Positions 1 through 12,838 of a stretch of DNA of 38,557 bases are shown piece by piece. The stretch comes from Dehalococcoidia bacterium (lineage in GTDB: Bacteria; Chloroflexota; Dehalococcoidia; Dehalococcoidales; SURF-40), in contig QZJL01000044.1 of the NCBI GenBank assembly GCA_003599745.1, positions 1-38,557 on the forward strand, read 5' to 3'. The notes under the pieces were generated by a model. It ran no database searches and was not told the origin of the DNA. It saw only the letters and a list, made by a program, of their open reading frames with translations. Position numbers and translations under genes: made by a program. Positions within the stretch are counted from its first letter, which is position 1. Each line of letters opens with the position of its first letter.

Positions 1-165
1 GACGACGATAATGGGTCTATCACCTTTCTTGTGATAGACTCGGTGGCTGCCGCCGCTCTTACGTAACCTGTACCCTAAAGCAATCAGAAGACGCTCACAG
101 TCTTCGGTCGTGATGTGAGTCTCGTCGGTAAGGAATTTTTTGACTAGCTTCTCTTTTCTTTCTAT
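1..165 (-). CDS. HicA-like mRNA interferase toxin, cut by window edge, start unclear
   Basis: Reading the minus strand from about 174 leftwards gives an open frame running off the edge. It carries a lysine/glutamate-rich first helix (RKEKLVKKF), an ERLLIALGYRL helix, then GGSHRVYHKKGDRPIIVV. This is the double-stranded-RNA-binding-like fold of HicA (YcfA) toxins, with the glycine-serine-histidine motif holding the catalytic His. HicA cleaves mRNA and is normally neutralised by HicB. No hicB is seen to the right; it could lie beyond position 1. The frame has no ATG, GTG or TTG after its upstream stop at 175-177, so translation would need ATA (163-165) or another odd codon, or the gene is degenerate. 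Family call is fairly firm; intactness is not. Confidence 0.6.
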   Translation of the reverse strand, partial: MERKEKLVKKFLTDETHITTEDCERLLIALGYRLRKSGGSHRVYHKKGDRPIIVV

Positions 166-173
166 GCTAAGAT

Positions 174-191
174 GCTACCACGAGTAGTAGC
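174..191. promoter_or_regulatory. Imperfect palindrome upstream of the hicA-like frame
   Basis: Positions 174-191 read GCTACCACGAGTAGTAGC: two 8-base arms around a 2-base centre with one G:T-type mismatch. It lies directly in front of the HicA-like reading frame, where a HicB-type autoregulator would bind. The operator role is inferred from position only. It could also form a small hairpin in the RNA. Confidence 0.35.
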
Positions 192-213
192 ATTTGTCAA
201 TTTGATATGTTTG

Positions 214-321
214 TCACCAGTCGGCCAGCAGCAAGCCGCAGTAAAGCGCGTTTTCACCCGCCTGTATTAAAGCCTCGACCTCGCTGACTTTATCCACCGG
301 CGAAAGAATCTTCATCATCAT
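214..321 (-). pseudogene. N-terminal stump of a U32-family peptidase
   Basis: The minus strand from 321 encodes 35 residues beginning with three Met codons, followed by KILSPVDKVSEVEALIQAG and YCGLLLADW, then TGA at 214-216. This is the characteristic first beta-alpha-beta unit of U32 peptidase (collagenase-like/YegQ-type) proteins, which are normally several hundred residues long. Codon use is GC-rich like the native chromosome and unlike the genes on both sides. The frame stops exactly at the end of the conserved block, and what follows is AT-rich. I read it as the 5' end of a native gene cut by insertion or deletion; the rest of the gene is not in the window. Confidence 0.6.
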
Positions 322-340
322 GTAATTATAAACTTTAGGT

Positions 341-356
341 CATAGCTATTGCTATG
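341..356. repeat. Short perfect hairpin between druA-like gene and U32 stump
   Basis: CATAGC-TATT-GCTATG forms a perfect 6-bp stem with a 4-nt loop. It lies about 45 bases downstream of the last gene of the nurA-herA-druA operon. There is no T-tract on either strand, so it is at best a weak transcription terminator or 3'-end stabilising hairpin. Confidence 0.25.
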
Positions 357-398
357 CCGTAGACTGCTGAAATAAGAGTGAACTATTATACTGTTTCT

Positions 399-1652
399 TT
401 ATGTGATAGTTTTTTCGATATTGAAATTTTCGGGTAAGAATTCTCTGACCTTGTTGATTATAAAAGGATTTTGCTTTCGGTTTCTCAACCATCTAGCATC
501 CCAATAATCGACAAGTTTATCTAATGGCATATCTCGATAGAGTGGTGTTTTCGCTTCACCTTTTAAAAATGCTCTGAAGTTTCTAGCTACTCGAACCGCA
601 AATAGTCCTCTCTGAAAAGAATGCTTTAGAATTACGTCCGAATTCAAATCCAGCACATCGCAAGCCGCTCTTATGACTCTCATACGCCAATTAGGGCCGT
701 CCCCAAATCTGTTAGACGTATTGCACCCATTTTCCTCTGCAAGCTGCAACATGGCCTTAAAAGTTTCGTGTGAGATATGAAGAGAGCCATAACCAGACGT
801 TACCCCTATTGGTTTGTATAATAACGTTTTTCCGTACTTCAAACGGTTGTATTGAGAACTATTTTTGCCATATAAGCTCGTTGTCATAATTAAGGCTAGC
901 TCAGATGCTTTGCGCTTCTTAATTATCGTCTCAGATTTTGCATATTTTGCTTTGAAGATTTCCCTTAACTCGTTAGACGCTAGAACATAAGAGACCAACT
1001 TCCCGCCGAGCAGGTAATTGTAAGGCGGAACCGCACCGATGACATATGCATCCATACTATAAATAATTCTATTCGACCTTGTTGCGGTGTCCCATCCAAT
1101 CCACTTGTCTCTATCAGGAATATGGATGATGCTACTCCCCAGAGCTGCAATACCAATAATTGGGCTATCTTTTACTCCATCATCTCTGATAAGTAAGCGC
1201 ATTCTTCTGCCCACATAATCCGATGACGGCGAACTCCAAAAATACCTGAATATCCGAAAAAGGTCATGTTGAGCTTGTGTCTTACACGCTTCTATTCTCG
1301 GATGAATTTGAGATTTCAAAAGAGTGCTTCCAAGCGCCAAATTACTTCGTGCTAAATCGAGATGCTGTTTTATCCAGCTTTCGTTAAGCTCTATCATTTC
1401 ATTTCGAGAATAAGCCATCGCTTTTCTGATTATTTCTTTATGATAAGTGTTTGGCGGTACCAATTTGATGGCATTTGAATTGGATTGTAAATGCCAACCT
1501 AATCTGAGCAGGTCACGCACAAGCAGTAAAGGCACACGTTGTTCCAATGGTAAATTATCTTGGTCTATCGAAAATTGGCTAGCAAACGATGGCTCTAAGA
1601 GTCGGGCGAGTATATCGTCCCCTCGTTGGGTTGGGACAGTTAGCGTCGTCAC
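399..1652 (-). CDS. druA-like: DUF4338 protein, Druantia DruA-like (417 aa)
   Basis: The protein resembles the DUF4338 family, which includes DruA of the Druantia anti-phage system; DUF4338 has no established enzymatic activity. The diagnostic core runs from about residue 148 to 270: RRMRLLIRDDG, then IGIAALGSS, RDKWIGWD (181-188), DAYVIGAVPPYNYLLGGKLV (201-220), and further on SSQYNRLKY. The segment FGDGPNWRMR near residue 320 and the C-terminal helices also fit the longer DruA-type members. The start is GTG, chosen because it overlaps the herA stop (GTGA, 4 bases), which implies translational coupling. The other Druantia genes (DruB-E, including the large helicase DruE) are absent; instead it is linked to HerA and NurA. 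Codon use is AT-rich. The family call is from memory of the motif pattern, so it is good but not certain. Confidence 0.72.
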   Translation of the reverse strand: MTTLTVPTQRGDDILARLLEPSFASQFSIDQDNLPLEQRVPLLLVRDLLRLGWHLQSNSNAIKLVPPNTYHKEIIRKAMAYSRNEMIELNESWIKQHLDLARSNLALGSTLLKSQIHPRIEACKTQAQHDLFRIFRYFWSSPSSDYVGRRMRLLIRDDGVKDSPIIGIAALGSSIIHIPDRDKWIGWDTATRSNRIIYSMDAYVIGAVPPYNYLLGGKLVSYVLASNELREIFKAKYAKSETIIKKRKASELALIMTTSLYGKNSSQYNRLKYGKTLLYKPIGVTSGYGSLHISHETFKAMLQLAEENGCNTSNRFGDGPNWRMRVIRAACDVLDLNSDVILKHSFQRGLFAVRVARNFRAFLKGEAKTPLYRDMPLDKLVDYWDARWLRNRKQNPFIINKVREFLPENFNIEKTIT

Positions 1653-3277
1653 TTGTATAGCTTATCCTTTACTAGTTTCTCAAATTCTATAACTCGGACT
1701 GGCACCGCAAAGGCACGGTCTGAAGTCACCATATATAGATTCCCAGGTATTGTCTCCGTCTGAATGAAATTCGAAATGACGCCATCATAGTTGATATTGG
1801 ACTTAACCAGAGCTTTAATATCATCCGAGTTGCCCATGTAAAAGGTAAAGAAGTTCTCGGCTTGCGTTCTTATTTCTTCGGAAATTGCGGATGGGCGCTG
1901 GGTTATGGCGACCATTCCCAATCCGAATTTTCTTCCTTCTTTGGCACAACGCACAAACGGGTTAGCGTTGCTCTTAACTAATTCATCGGACAACACATTT
2001 TGGGCTTCTTCGACAAAAACCACAGTCTGTATGACAGCGTCAGGCTTGTTGCTAGTAAATTCAGCTTTGTTATGTTCGAAAAGCTTACGAACAAATATGG
2101 TTGAGATAATACTTGCATCCGTTGTGTCCTTTAGCGAAAGGTCTATTACAACAGTCTTGCCCTGTTTGAGGTATTTGAAAACATCTTCAATTAAGGTTGA
2201 ACTGTTGCTGTGAAGACCCTTGCCCTCGTCGATTAAGTGGCGAACACGTTTTCTAATAGCTGCTATTGTTTTCCGTGCACTCTTGTCCTCTTCGCCCCTG
2301 GCATTTGTCGAAAAGAAATCCGGGAAATCTTTATGAATCTTTGAAGGATCATTTACGTACGTGTCGATCTTTGGGATAAAATCAGTGACACCCTCATCGT
2401 CTAAATACAAAAGAAATGACTTCATAACTTCTGAGAACCCCGTGGAGAAGCTTAGAATATCGGCGATGGTTAGGTTCTTGTGCATATTGATCAGAACTTT
2501 ACCGCCAGACTTGAAATGATTTTCATATCCCAGTATCTCTTTGTCGGTATAAACAACAAGGTTGTCACGAATCTTTTGCTCATCGATATTACCCAAACCA
2601 GCAGTCTTCTGACCTTTGAGGAAATATTCACCGTTTAGGTCGAAAATTAGCTTTCCGTAAGATACGTCACCTATAGTTTGATATAAAAGGACTTTTATCA
2701 GATTAGTCTTTCCGAAGCCGGATTGAGCGAATACCATAGTCCTTTTCTCTTTTAGCCTCTTGGTATCGAAAAGTATCTCACCTTTATCTGCGTGTAAATC
2801 TTCCCCTATGCATAGGCATCCTATCGGCGCTCCGGCAGAGTCTGGTTGATTTATTATGGCATCGACTTCTCTTTTATTTAGATGCCTAGCGTGGTATGAG
2901 ACCGTTGGGAGCTTCCGCACAGCAGTTGTAAACACTATTGCATACCCGCTGTCAGTGAATGTTCCCAGCATTCGGACTCTATATGTATAGCTAAACATCT
3001 TCTGCTTATCACGCTCTGAGAGTTCCCTTTCAGCTATGCGAGCATAGTGAACCGCTACGAGTGTCTTATCTTGTGACCGGAATATGGGGTCTTCATCATA
3101 TATTTCAGCTTCAACTCTCGTTAAAAATTTCCTGCCGTCTTCATTTTTCGGGGTAAGGACAATGAAGTCACCTTTATTTGGACTAGCTTTAGCATCCTCA
3201 TAGGAAGAGTAAATTAGCAAAGCGTCTTCGGTAGTCTTTTGTCCATATAGGACGCCGAAATCAGTACGTTGTGGCAT
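1649..3277 (-). CDS. herA: HerA-type hexameric DNA translocase ATPase (542 aa)
   Basis: HerA proteins are FtsK/HerA-superfamily ring ATPases that pump DNA and drive partner nucleases. Residues 1-125 form a beta-rich region consistent with a HAS barrel. Walker A is AQSGFGKTN (184-192, Lys190), a variant of the usual TGSGKSN. The NGEYF block (215-219) is typical. Walker B with the catalytic acidic pair is VVFVEEAQ (419-426). The motif ITQRPSAISEEIRTQ (458-472) supplies the sensor Gln/Arg. The start ATG at 3277 has a strong SD (AAGGAGAG) placed 6 bases upstream, and lies 11 bases after the nurA stop. The last codons overlap the next gene. Association with NurA is the classic DNA-end-resection pair; here the third partner suggests a defence role. 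No Mre11/Rad50 is nearby. Confidence 0.9.
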   Translation of the reverse strand: MPQRTDFGVLYGQKTTEDALLIYSSYEDAKASPNKGDFIVLTPKNEDGRKFLTRVEAEIYDEDPIFRSQDKTLVAVHYARIAERELSERDKQKMFSYTYRVRMLGTFTDSGYAIVFTTAVRKLPTVSYHARHLNKREVDAIINQPDSAGAPIGCLCIGEDLHADKGEILFDTKRLKEKRTMVFAQSGFGKTNLIKVLLYQTIGDVSYGKLIFDLNGEYFLKGQKTAGLGNIDEQKIRDNLVVYTDKEILGYENHFKSGGKVLINMHKNLTIADILSFSTGFSEVMKSFLLYLDDEGVTDFIPKIDTYVNDPSKIHKDFPDFFSTNARGEEDKSARKTIAAIRKRVRHLIDEGKGLHSNSSTLIEDVFKYLKQGKTVVIDLSLKDTTDASIISTIFVRKLFEHNKAEFTSNKPDAVIQTVVFVEEAQNVLSDELVKSNANPFVRCAKEGRKFGLGMVAITQRPSAISEEIRTQAENFFTFYMGNSDDIKALVKSNINYDGVISNFIQTETIPGNLYMVTSDRAFAVPVRVIEFEKLVKDKLYK

Positions 3278-3288
3278 TTCCTCTCTCC

Positions 3289-4527
3289 TTAGAAACGGGA
3301 ATGAATATCAAGGAACATATTTTCGATGTCAACATTATCCATGCGTTGAGTCAAGTACATGGAATGCTTTACCCGGTTTATCACTTCTTCTTTGAAATCT
3401 GCCTTAAGTGTCACGAAATTGTGTGCCTCAACCAATGGATATGGGTAGCCAAGGATATAATGTTCCTGTGTCAGCCGAGTGAGATTATAGAAAATCTCTT
3501 TTAATTTACTAATATTTCGAGTTTGGACATTTTGTTTTATTCCAGGTATTGCATCAAAGATATTAACGTCAGCGACTACCCAATCGTAATTTTGAAGTTT
3601 CTCTACATAATCAAGTCTGGCAGCAAAGAATAAGCCAAATCCCCTGCCACCTGTAATACCTTTTTTCACGAACATTGACCCGCTTCCGTAAGAGTTTAAT
3701 AACACGTTATCGGGAACTTCAAACCAACAACATAATTTTTGACTCTTAGGGTCGGTCTCTTTGAAAGGGTAAGAGGGTCTTAGCTTGTCCTGAAGGTAAC
3801 CATCTATTTGTTTGAAAGTGTAGCTTAGTTCTATTTTTATTGGCGAGTTTTTTGTTATCCCGACAATGATGAGCTTCTTTTCATTGCTCAGAAAGTCACC
3901 GAGCTTAACGAGATACTCTTGTTTAATATTTAGTGACCTGAGAGTCCCATCCTTTAATATGAAATCCCCTTCTTTGACTTCAGGCCGACAAGCGATTTCA
4001 AATATCAGAGACCATTCCAAAATTTCCTGACAAAAGGACAACAGGGTCGAGATCGTGGTGCAAACTGCTTCCTTTGTGTATGGAAATATATCTCCCAAGC
4101 CTGCTGGTTTCAAGAAATCCAAGAATCTTTTTACGGTTGGTAAAGCAATTAGCTCATCATAAATGACAGATAAGTGCTGGTCGCAAGTTATTAAGATATT
4201 CTGGGGAGTGTACGATTGCCCTAAGATTACAGGGTCGTTATAGTTGTTTAAGCGAATCTGTTTTCCCGAATCAAAGCAAACATAGCCGCCTCGATACAAG
4301 CCAATAGTTACCCCATTGTAGAAAGAATGGCTGTTGTCGCTTCCATCAACTGCGAAAAACTTTAAGTCGGTATCGTCAATCTGGTCGAAGGGTATTATCT
4401 CAAAAATCTGCGGCGTTTCTGAGTTCGACTCGTCACCCACTGTAGGAATCGGATATTGCTTATTAGTTCGCAGATTGATATGTTGAGCAACAGAATCAAT
4501 CGCTGATTGTGGAATAAGGTCTTCCAT
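3289..4527 (-). CDS. nurA: NurA-domain nuclease (412 aa)
   Basis: NurA is a 5'-3' single/double-strand exo- and endonuclease that works threaded to the HerA ring. The N-terminal motif FFAVDGS (Asp61) is the hallmark. A second acidic cluster is LIFEIA (Glu177) and ILKDGTLRSL (Asp193), followed by LIIVGITKNSP (219-229). The C-terminal GYPYPLVEAHNF (360-371) supplies the Tyr/His pair (Tyr361, His369, eight residues apart as in Sulfolobus NurA). By this reading all five active-site residues are present, so the enzyme should be active; the exact Glu assignment is tentative. First gene of the operon, preceded by a near-consensus promoter. The SD is weak (TTAGGT, about 10-12 bases before ATG). The middle region (about 230-350) is longer and more variable than in archaeal NurA. 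Confidence 0.82.
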   Translation of the reverse strand: MEDLIPQSAIDSVAQHINLRTNKQYPIPTVGDESNSETPQIFEIIPFDQIDDTDLKFFAVDGSDNSHSFYNGVTIGLYRGGYVCFDSGKQIRLNNYNDPVILGQSYTPQNILITCDQHLSVIYDELIALPTVKRFLDFLKPAGLGDIFPYTKEAVCTTISTLLSFCQEILEWSLIFEIACRPEVKEGDFILKDGTLRSLNIKQEYLVKLGDFLSNEKKLIIVGITKNSPIKIELSYTFKQIDGYLQDKLRPSYPFKETDPKSQKLCCWFEVPDNVLLNSYGSGSMFVKKGITGGRGFGLFFAARLDYVEKLQNYDWVVADVNIFDAIPGIKQNVQTRNISKLKEIFYNLTRLTQEHYILGYPYPLVEAHNFVTLKADFKEEVINRVKHSMYLTQRMDNVDIENMFLDIHSRF

Positions 4528-4556: not shown

Positions 4557-4584
4557 ATTATACACCAACATCATTTTATGCCAA
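4557..4584 (-). promoter_or_regulatory. Sigma-70-type promoter of nurA-herA-druA operon
   Basis: On the minus strand TTGGCA (4584-4579) is followed after 16 bases by a perfect TATAAT (4562-4557), 29 bases ahead of the nurA ATG. It is one of the best promoter matches in the window and would transcribe the whole three-gene operon constitutively unless an operator overlaps it. Confidence 0.65.
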
Positions 4585-11291: not shown

Positions 11292-11332
11292 CATCTTAGA
11301 GAGGTTAATTATTCAATTTAAGGAGGGCAGCG

Positions 11333-12838
11333 ATGGCGCTGAAAACGGCAGAGGAATTCCGGGAGAGCCTGCGGGATGGTCGGGTGGTCTACATGGATGG
11401 GGAAAAGGTCGCCGATGTAACCACCCATCCTAAGCTGAAGGTCGCCACCGATACCGCCGCCTTCGACTACGAACTGGCGGAGATGCCCGAGTACCGCGAA
11501 CTGGCGGTGGTCAGGGACGAAAAGACCGGCGAAGAATACAGCCGCTACTTCCACCGGCCAAAGAACGGCGAAGACCTGCTCAAGCGCCACGAGCTGATGC
11601 TGGTCGCCTCCCGCTTAAATTACACCACCACGCCTTTCGCCCGCGAGATGATTGACTCGTTCAACGGCTGCGTGGTCACCGCCCATGCCATGGGCAACCG
11701 CGACTACATCGAACGCACCGACGCTTACCTGGACTACCTGAGGAAGAATGACCTCAGCCTGGCGGGCGCCATCACCGATGTTAAGGGCGACCGCTTGCTG
11801 CGGCCTGCCGACCCCAAGCAGAGTCACCCCGATTATTACCTCAGAGTGATTGACAAAAACAAGGAAGGCATCATCGTGCGCGGCTGTAAGGCGCATATTA
11901 CCTCGCCTGCCTATCTCAACGAAATGCTGGTCATGCCTTGCCGCAATATGACCGAGGCCGACGCCGACTACGCCGTGGCCTTTGCCACACCGGTCAGCGC
12001 CAAAGGCGTCATCCAGATTGTTCATCCCTTCGACTCGCACCGCGGCCCGCTGGACTTCCCCCTTGATATTCCGGTACGGAGCCACACCGACTCCCTGGTT
12101 ATTTTCGATGATGTTTTTGTTCCCTGGGAAAGGGTATTCCTCTGCGGAGAATGGCAGAGTGCCGCCACCGCCGTTTATAACTTCGCCTATCTGCACCGCC
12201 ACACCGCCGTCACCTACCACATCGCCTGGGTCGAGCTAATTGTAGGGCTGGGCGCCGCCATTGCCGATTTCAACGGGGTAACGAAAGCCCCCAACATCAG
12301 GGAAGAAGTCACCGAACTAATCATCTATCTCAATACTATGAAAGCCCTGGCACGGGCTTCCTGCATTGATTACGTGATGCACGGCGACCTGGCAATTCCC
12401 AACCCGGTCACCGCCAACGTCGCCAAGCACTATTATGCCGACAATTATCACAAGGTAGTGAAAATTGTCGAAGACCTTTGCGGCGCGCTGCTAACCACCG
12501 CTCCGAGTTTCCGTGACTGGCAGAATCCCGCCACCGGCAATTTCATGGAGAAGTATCTCGGCGGACGGGCGGGCGCCAGCGCCGAGGCCAGGCTCAGAAT
12601 ATTGCAGGCGCTGCGCCACTACCCATGCCTCGGCACCGAACTAGACGTGAACAACATTCACGCTGAGGGTTCACTTATGGCGGAAAGGCTGACCATCTAC
12701 TCCGAGGCAAGAAAAGACCTTGAGCTTTACAAGCAACTGGCGAACTACCTGGCGGGTAACGTTAAGATGAGCTGGGAAGAGTACAAACAGCTCTGCGGGG
12801 AGCTTTCCAAGCTGGGCAAGGGCGAATCACAGCGGTAA
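11333..12838 (+). CDS. HpaB/4-hydroxybutyryl-CoA dehydratase-family paralogue lacking two cluster ligands (501 aa)
   Basis: Same family as the protein at 8961: shared TDVKGDRLLRPADP, IIVRGCKAHIT and FDDVFVPWERVFL. The cluster motif has decayed. The first Cys is kept in FNGCVVTA, but the second is Ala. The His is kept in LHRHTAVTY, but the partner Cys is Tyr. Two of four [4Fe-4S] ligands are therefore gone, and the N-terminus (about 40 residues) is longer. It should be a cluster-less flavoprotein, such as a flavin-dependent monooxygenase (HpaB-like) or an isomerase that needs only FAD, or it may pair with another subunit. It has a strong SD (AAGGAGGG) and its own promoter. Reaction and substrate are unknown. 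Confidence 0.78.
   Translation: MALKTAEEFRESLRDGRVVYMDGEKVADVTTHPKLKVATDTAAFDYELAEMPEYRELAVVRDEKTGEEYSRYFHRPKNGEDLLKRHELMLVASRLNYTTTPFAREMIDSFNGCVVTAHAMGNRDYIERTDAYLDYLRKNDLSLAGAITDVKGDRLLRPADPKQSHPDYYLRVIDKNKEGIIVRGCKAHITSPAYLNEMLVMPCRNMTEADADYAVAFATPVSAKGVIQIVHPFDSHRGPLDFPLDIPVRSHTDSLVIFDDVFVPWERVFLCGEWQSAATAVYNFAYLHRHTAVTYHIAWVELIVGLGAAIADFNGVTKAPNIREEVTELIIYLNTMKALARASCIDYVMHGDLAIPNPVTANVAKHYYADNYHKVVKIVEDLCGALLTTAPSFRDWQNPATGNFMEKYLGGRAGASAEARLRILQALRHYPCLGTELDVNNIHAEGSLMAERLTIYSEARKDLELYKQLANYLAGNVKMSWEEYKQLCGELSKLGKGESQR

Follow-up and report, generated by a model that had tools for sequence, protein, structure and literature searches.

The window, by which we mean the whole stretch of 38,557 nucleotides analysed here, carries on its minus strand a compact nurA-herA-druA operon, and our comparisons support the view that this combination is a real and undescribed-looking system. 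No paper describing a NurA-HerA-DruA combination was found in our literature search of open PMC papers. We propose that a restriction-type defence is part of the explanation, a reading to which we give a probability of about 0.75, and that the operon would protect its host from phages or plasmids. More tentatively, at a little short of even odds, we propose that DruA is the component writing a self-mark on host DNA.

The genes are arranged head to tail, with the coordinates, reading frames and spacings given in the preliminary description. The first, nurA (3289-4527, minus strand), starts with ATG and encodes a NurA/TdpB-like nuclease of 412 aa. After an 11-base gap follows herA (1649-3277, minus strand; ATG start), encoding a predicted HerA/TdpA-like hexameric DNA-translocase ATPase of 542 aa, which overlaps by four bases (GTGA) with druA (399-1652, minus strand; GTG start), encoding a DUF4338/DruA protein of 417 aa with a putative GNAT-like fold. 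The preliminary description had also placed the operon behind one strong promoter. A promoter-like site, TTGGCA-16-TATAAT (4557-4584, minus strand; a consensus match only), does precede the nurA start codon by 29 bases and matches the consensus at 11 of 12 positions; such sites are common in this region (17 observed vs 11.1 +/- 3.0 expected), which makes this one alone weak evidence. The AT-rich island noted earlier has a GC content of 0.40-0.43 across positions 1-4000 vs 0.56-0.62 past 5 kb. The adjoining HicA-like toxin is present as a fragment of 57 residues (171-1, minus strand), which is encoded about 230 bases downstream of druA, likewise on the minus strand, and runs off the contig start. 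The window is one complete contig of a 1.56 Mb draft genome, and therefore the sequence downstream of druA ends after 398 bases.

Both partners of the nuclease pair have intact active-site motifs, as the preliminary description had indicated. Compared alone with Pfam, the window NurA scored 19.7 bits, under the 21-bit cut-off; at the level of its family, PF09376 was matched by 32 of 32 members (best E 5.5e-11). An AlphaFold2 model of the protein (pLDDT 84) matches the fold of TdpB with E 1.5e-11. Residues D61, D193, Y361 and H369 are invariant across the family, and in the alignment with the solved NurA 2ygk, D61, D193 and the GYPYPLVEAH motif, which holds Y361 and H369, fall on the corresponding motifs. 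HerA matches PF01935 (E 7.3e-16) and possesses the Walker A motif AQSGFGKTN (K190) and the Walker B motif FVEEAQ, with K190, E423 and E424 invariant across its family. For the third protein, the preliminary description had named HMM placement in DUF4338 as a check, and the 399-1652 product falls there with PF14236 at E 8.7e-56. A PADLOC run on the locus, also suggested at that time, returned DruA1 with E 7.1e-85 and no match to a NurA model.

When genome contigs were scanned with the window's NurA, 41 loci of 51-71% identity were found in about 12 phyla, including Chloroflexota, Cyanobacteriota, Ignavibacteriota, Planctomycetota, Bacteroidota, Acidobacteriota, Nitrospirota, Spirochaetota and Calditrichota, as well as several Patescibacteria-type lineages and others. 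The adjacency of the three genes, which had been suggested for checking across genomes, was found in 35 of these 41 loci; we counted L019 as complete, its druA being intact although missed in gene calling. Three further loci are incomplete owing to contig ends or assembly (L011 and L038 stop within the operon, while in L012 herA is broken near the contig end), and three are broken. Among the latter, herA is truncated in L041 and L047, and in L042 an HNH endonuclease gene (11292-12134) replaces herA between nurA and druA, so that druA is retained there without herA. Every intact nurA-herA pair of the window's lineage is accompanied by druA (35/35). Measured in 33 loci, the distance between herA and druA is 2 nt at the median, and the two genes overlap in 13 of them. 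The gene order of L014 starts with druA. The linkage of the three genes is far beyond chance. Two of the loci contain a protein of about 340 aa without a Pfam match between nurA and herA, and a third has it beside the operon (L028 1634-2662; L045 11278-12294; L039 14159-15196).

Within the phyla that we counted, the distribution is patchy. Window-type NurA occurs in 3 of 400 genomes of the window's own phylum, and 244 cyanobacterial genomes yielded it in three and DruA in six; in all three of the former, DruA is encoded about 2 kb away. Eight carrier genomes searched whole each had exactly one DruA, namely the operon copy. In an uncontrolled scan, the 140 nearest neighbour genes were mostly ordinary, with a few restriction-modification and Mads-like matches, and a usual location in defence islands was not evident. 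We also considered the operon as phage or plasmid cargo and rejected this, as searches with the window NurA of 50,697 phage records, 72,556 plasmid records and viral contigs all came back empty.

One existing assignment of such a pair would make the operon a module for DNA repair or recombination, with HerA-NurA resecting DNA ends and DruA acting as an accessory factor. End resection by HerA-NurA has been proposed for archaea and Deinococcus, whose proteins form the same ATPase-nuclease pair with conserved catalytic residues. Moreover, chromosomal NurA genes are common in the window's phylum (186 of 301 genomes), which is also why the Pfam NurA family, picking up these copies, is unsuitable as a search family for the window's lineage. 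Unlike the archaeal and Deinococcus genes, however, the window's NurA belongs to a separate lineage that is patchy and horizontally spread over about 12 phyla, always with druA when intact, and in which the third gene is exchanged (see below). In a study of the archaeal complex, HerA pumps DNA into the NurA dimer, where both strands are cut, and its authors argue against end resection and suggest a possible antiviral role (PMC12977600). Taken with the distribution above, this makes a repair module the least probable of the readings we considered.

A different kinship, absent from the preliminary description, came from profile comparison with the PDB. Among solved structures, TdpA and TdpB stand closest to HerA and NurA, respectively: the HerA family matched TdpA best (E 2.6e-29), followed by archaeal HerA (E 2.4e-18), and the best match of the NurA family was TdpB (E 6.6e-5). 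In Thermus, TdpAB carries out restriction within a phosphorothioation system: it degrades DNA without phosphorothioate, the mark being written by TdpC. TdpABC (PDB 8wet, 8wfd, 8y1k) resembles our operon in its three-gene scale and in combining a HerA-type ATPase with a NurA-type nuclease. It differs in the low identity of TdpB to the window NurA (11-14% in the fold alignment) and in its third protein, which here is DruA and has no SGGxxS/T-like PP-loop motif as expected of a sulphur-activating ATP pyrophosphatase. A search for TdpA in plasmids gave distant matches only (<60% identity). HerA-DUF4297 and Sir2-HerA likewise couple a HerA-family ATPase to an effector enzyme, but similarity to their structures is weaker (8su9, 8uae, 8wiv; E 1e-17 to 1e-16); neither a DUF4297 nor a Sir2 effector stands beside the window HerA, whose partner is NurA, and druA is an extra gene.

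In a related plasmid lineage of HerA-NurA, the pair is found next to an N6/N4 DNA methylase, namely in Deferribacter (L056 460-6933), where herA is interrupted by an IS605/TnpB element, and in the archaeon Halorarius (L103 3942-8718), whose HerA also matches TdpA best. A limited literature search found no description of such HerA-NurA-DNA methylase operons. Three cyanobacterial members of the same lineage are without a modification gene. On a Nostoc plasmid, an AbiTii gene directly follows the HerA-NurA pair (L102 5965-8430).

DruA itself is far from confined to Druantia. Within the window's phylum it occurs in 19 of 301 genomes, 12-13 times beside HerA-NurA and only twice beside an ORF of the size of the Druantia helicase; thus, HerA-NurA is the commonest DruA setting in this phylum. 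Of the 19, two are members of the window's lineage (G000, G122), and ten adjoin a pair of a second lineage, HerA2-NurA2, where druA mostly comes first, followed by nurA2 and herA2. In G353, HerA is three genes from DruA with other genes between, G173 and G319 have an ORF of 1,820-1,827 aa beside DruA, and four DruAs are without an assigned partner (G143, at a contig end, G206, G074 and G349). HerA2 resembles the window HerA at E 1e-3 to 1e-11 only, and the remaining cyanobacterial DruA genes pointed to a pair of this second lineage as well (L065, L066). DruA is thus a partner of HerA-NurA in two lineages, with two gene orders, which strengthens the three-way linkage claimed from the window alone. 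The stricter statement that the nuclease pair never goes without DruA fits the window's lineage but fails for HerA2-NurA2 in a single genus, where three genomes lack druA and have a glycosyltransferase beside the pair instead. Elsewhere, L148 (7668-13187) lines up druA, two genes coding for 335 and 429 aa and a HerA (E 1.1e-31), which may be a further DruA-HerA arrangement built around another effector.

With Druantia type I (DruABCDE), the operon shares the DruA/DUF4338 protein but has HerA-NurA in place of the DruE machine. DruE belongs to the YprA helicase family and measures about 1,800 aa, and neither the first 12 kb of the window nor the regions flanking the 41 loci contain an ORF of at least 1,500 aa. 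Since ORFs of DruE size were seen beside DruA in G173 and G319, a DruE gene would have been detected, and its absence rules out Druantia membership.

What, then, might DruA do? Its predicted structure is confident (pLDDT 89, pTM 0.88), and in a Foldseek search against the PDB the top match and many others were GNAT enzymes, each individually weak (best E 0.09). Some giant-virus predicted proteins in BFVD match the DruA fold as well (E 4.8e-15 to 2e-6), among them A0A3G4ZXG3 of Faunusvirus, A0A5K0UAJ3 of Yasminevirus and A0A3G4ZRA1 of Dasosvirus. Across 50 bacterial DruAs, taken from HerA-NurA loci and Druantia-like loci, R149, R150, D157, R181, D182, Y211, K218, S265, R270 and H292 were kept in every sequence, and at least 13 polar or aromatic positions were invariant or nearly so. 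At the same time, DruA is the fastest-evolving protein of the operon, with a mean identity of 0.42 vs 0.60 and 0.69 for the other two. Invariant residues despite fast evolution form the pattern that would be expected of an enzyme. In our preferred reading, DruA would be an enzyme with DNA as its substrate.

A GNAT-like fold would also suit an enzyme acting on a protein or a small molecule, for instance one that acylates NurA, HerA or a host target and works as a regulator of the nuclease or as a second effector. DUF4338 has been called a GNAT domain, and GNAT domains fused to DndF were proposed to act on proteins (PMC10853773). The company that DruA homologues keep in phages speaks against such a role. 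They occur in 31 phage records, including T4-like marine phages of Synechococcus and Pelagibacter, which are without HerA-NurA, and they mostly lie beside clamp, clamp-loader, RegA or polymerase genes, that is, replisome genes (for example, L108 3602-4732, L111 2611-3747 and L112 3001-4122); the relationship of the phage homologue to DruA is clear in hhalign (E 1.3e-22). The methylases occupying the same position in related operons also act on DNA, and altogether a protein or small-molecule substrate seems unlikely to us. The deposited name of one cyanophage homologue is 'methylcarbamoylase mom', and for this reason we examined a kinship of DruA with Mom, a DNA-modifying GNAT; it found no support, the hhalign probability being 0.4% for DruA and the phage homologues.

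The third gene of the operon is also the most mobile. DruAs of the window's lineage fall into two groups, about 50-60% vs 26-36% identical to the window DruA, and on a concatenated HerA+NurA tree of 31 loci the DruA type changes at least 5-6 times. Loci L033 and L044, for example, are 85% identical in HerA and 75% in NurA but only 27% in DruA, which indicates that the third gene was swapped in place. Distance correlations agree with this picture (0.62 for NurA-HerA, 0.18 for DruA-HerA). In the DruA tree, L065 and L066 of the second lineage are nested within the second DruA group of the window's lineage, indicating that druA has also moved between both HerA-NurA machines.

Such mobility is expected of a target-recognition part, and it brings us to the main rival, which takes up the sensor proposed in the preliminary description and in which DruA is a sensor or loader: it would recognise a feature of invading DNA, such as a DNA end, a replication intermediate or a modification, and recruit or license HerA-NurA, with no mark on the host. 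The nesting of L065 and L066 means that one DruA type serves two machines, and as DruA works in Druantia with another helicase, DruE, a DNA-recognition role would be an economical one. This alternative accounts for the exchange and for the Druantia connection as well as marking does. It fits less easily with the invariant charged residues of DruA, which look catalytic, with the methylases holding the third position in related operons, and with the phage homologues, as a stand-alone sensor would be of little gain to a phage, though a decoy is conceivable. We regard a sensor or loader as possible, but less likely than marking.

The comparative evidence leans somewhat to a self-marking enzyme over a sensor or target-selector. 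A nuclease of the HerA-NurA kind needs a rule for telling self from non-self. In the self-marking scenario, DruA would put a chemical mark on host DNA, and HerA-NurA would read it; the hexameric HerA ring would be expected to pump unmarked double-stranded DNA into the NurA dimer, which would cut both strands and thereby degrade it. We favour DruA as the writer of the mark because methylases fill the third position in related operons, because druA is exchanged in place yet constant beside intact nurA-herA in the window's lineage, because the conservation of DruA is enzyme-like, because phages carry homologues, and because HerA and NurA are kin to TdpAB.

Several observations count against self-marking. 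We know of no enzymatic activity for DruA, its GNAT matches are individually weak, and the profile comparison with Mom is negative. The druA-less HerA2-NurA2 of one genus calls for caution as to how certain a marking model can be, as do the plasmid operons without a modification gene, and the methylase cases are only two, both in one diverged HerA-NurA lineage. In canonical Druantia, DruA is to our knowledge used without any self-marking, and deletion of a Druantia I gene reportedly abolishes defence without killing the cell. It is tempting to go further and regard DruA as the founding member of a class of enzymes that mark DNA, probably with an acyl-type group; this class would provide the self-mark for HerA-NurA, be carried by phages to escape and have Druantia as a side branch. 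We consider this broad version rather unlikely.

Previously, DruA was recognised as a component of Druantia; here, a DNA pump and a nuclease are its commonest neighbours, at least in the window's phylum. This would correct tools for defence annotation in which DruA serves as the signature of Druantia. The three-gene operon is small enough for testing in a laboratory strain, which makes DruA function directly testable under either reading. If DruA is a sensor, the operon would be the simplest machine for studying it; if it instead writes a mark, the operon would reveal a DNA modification and a principle of self/non-self recognition that are both new.
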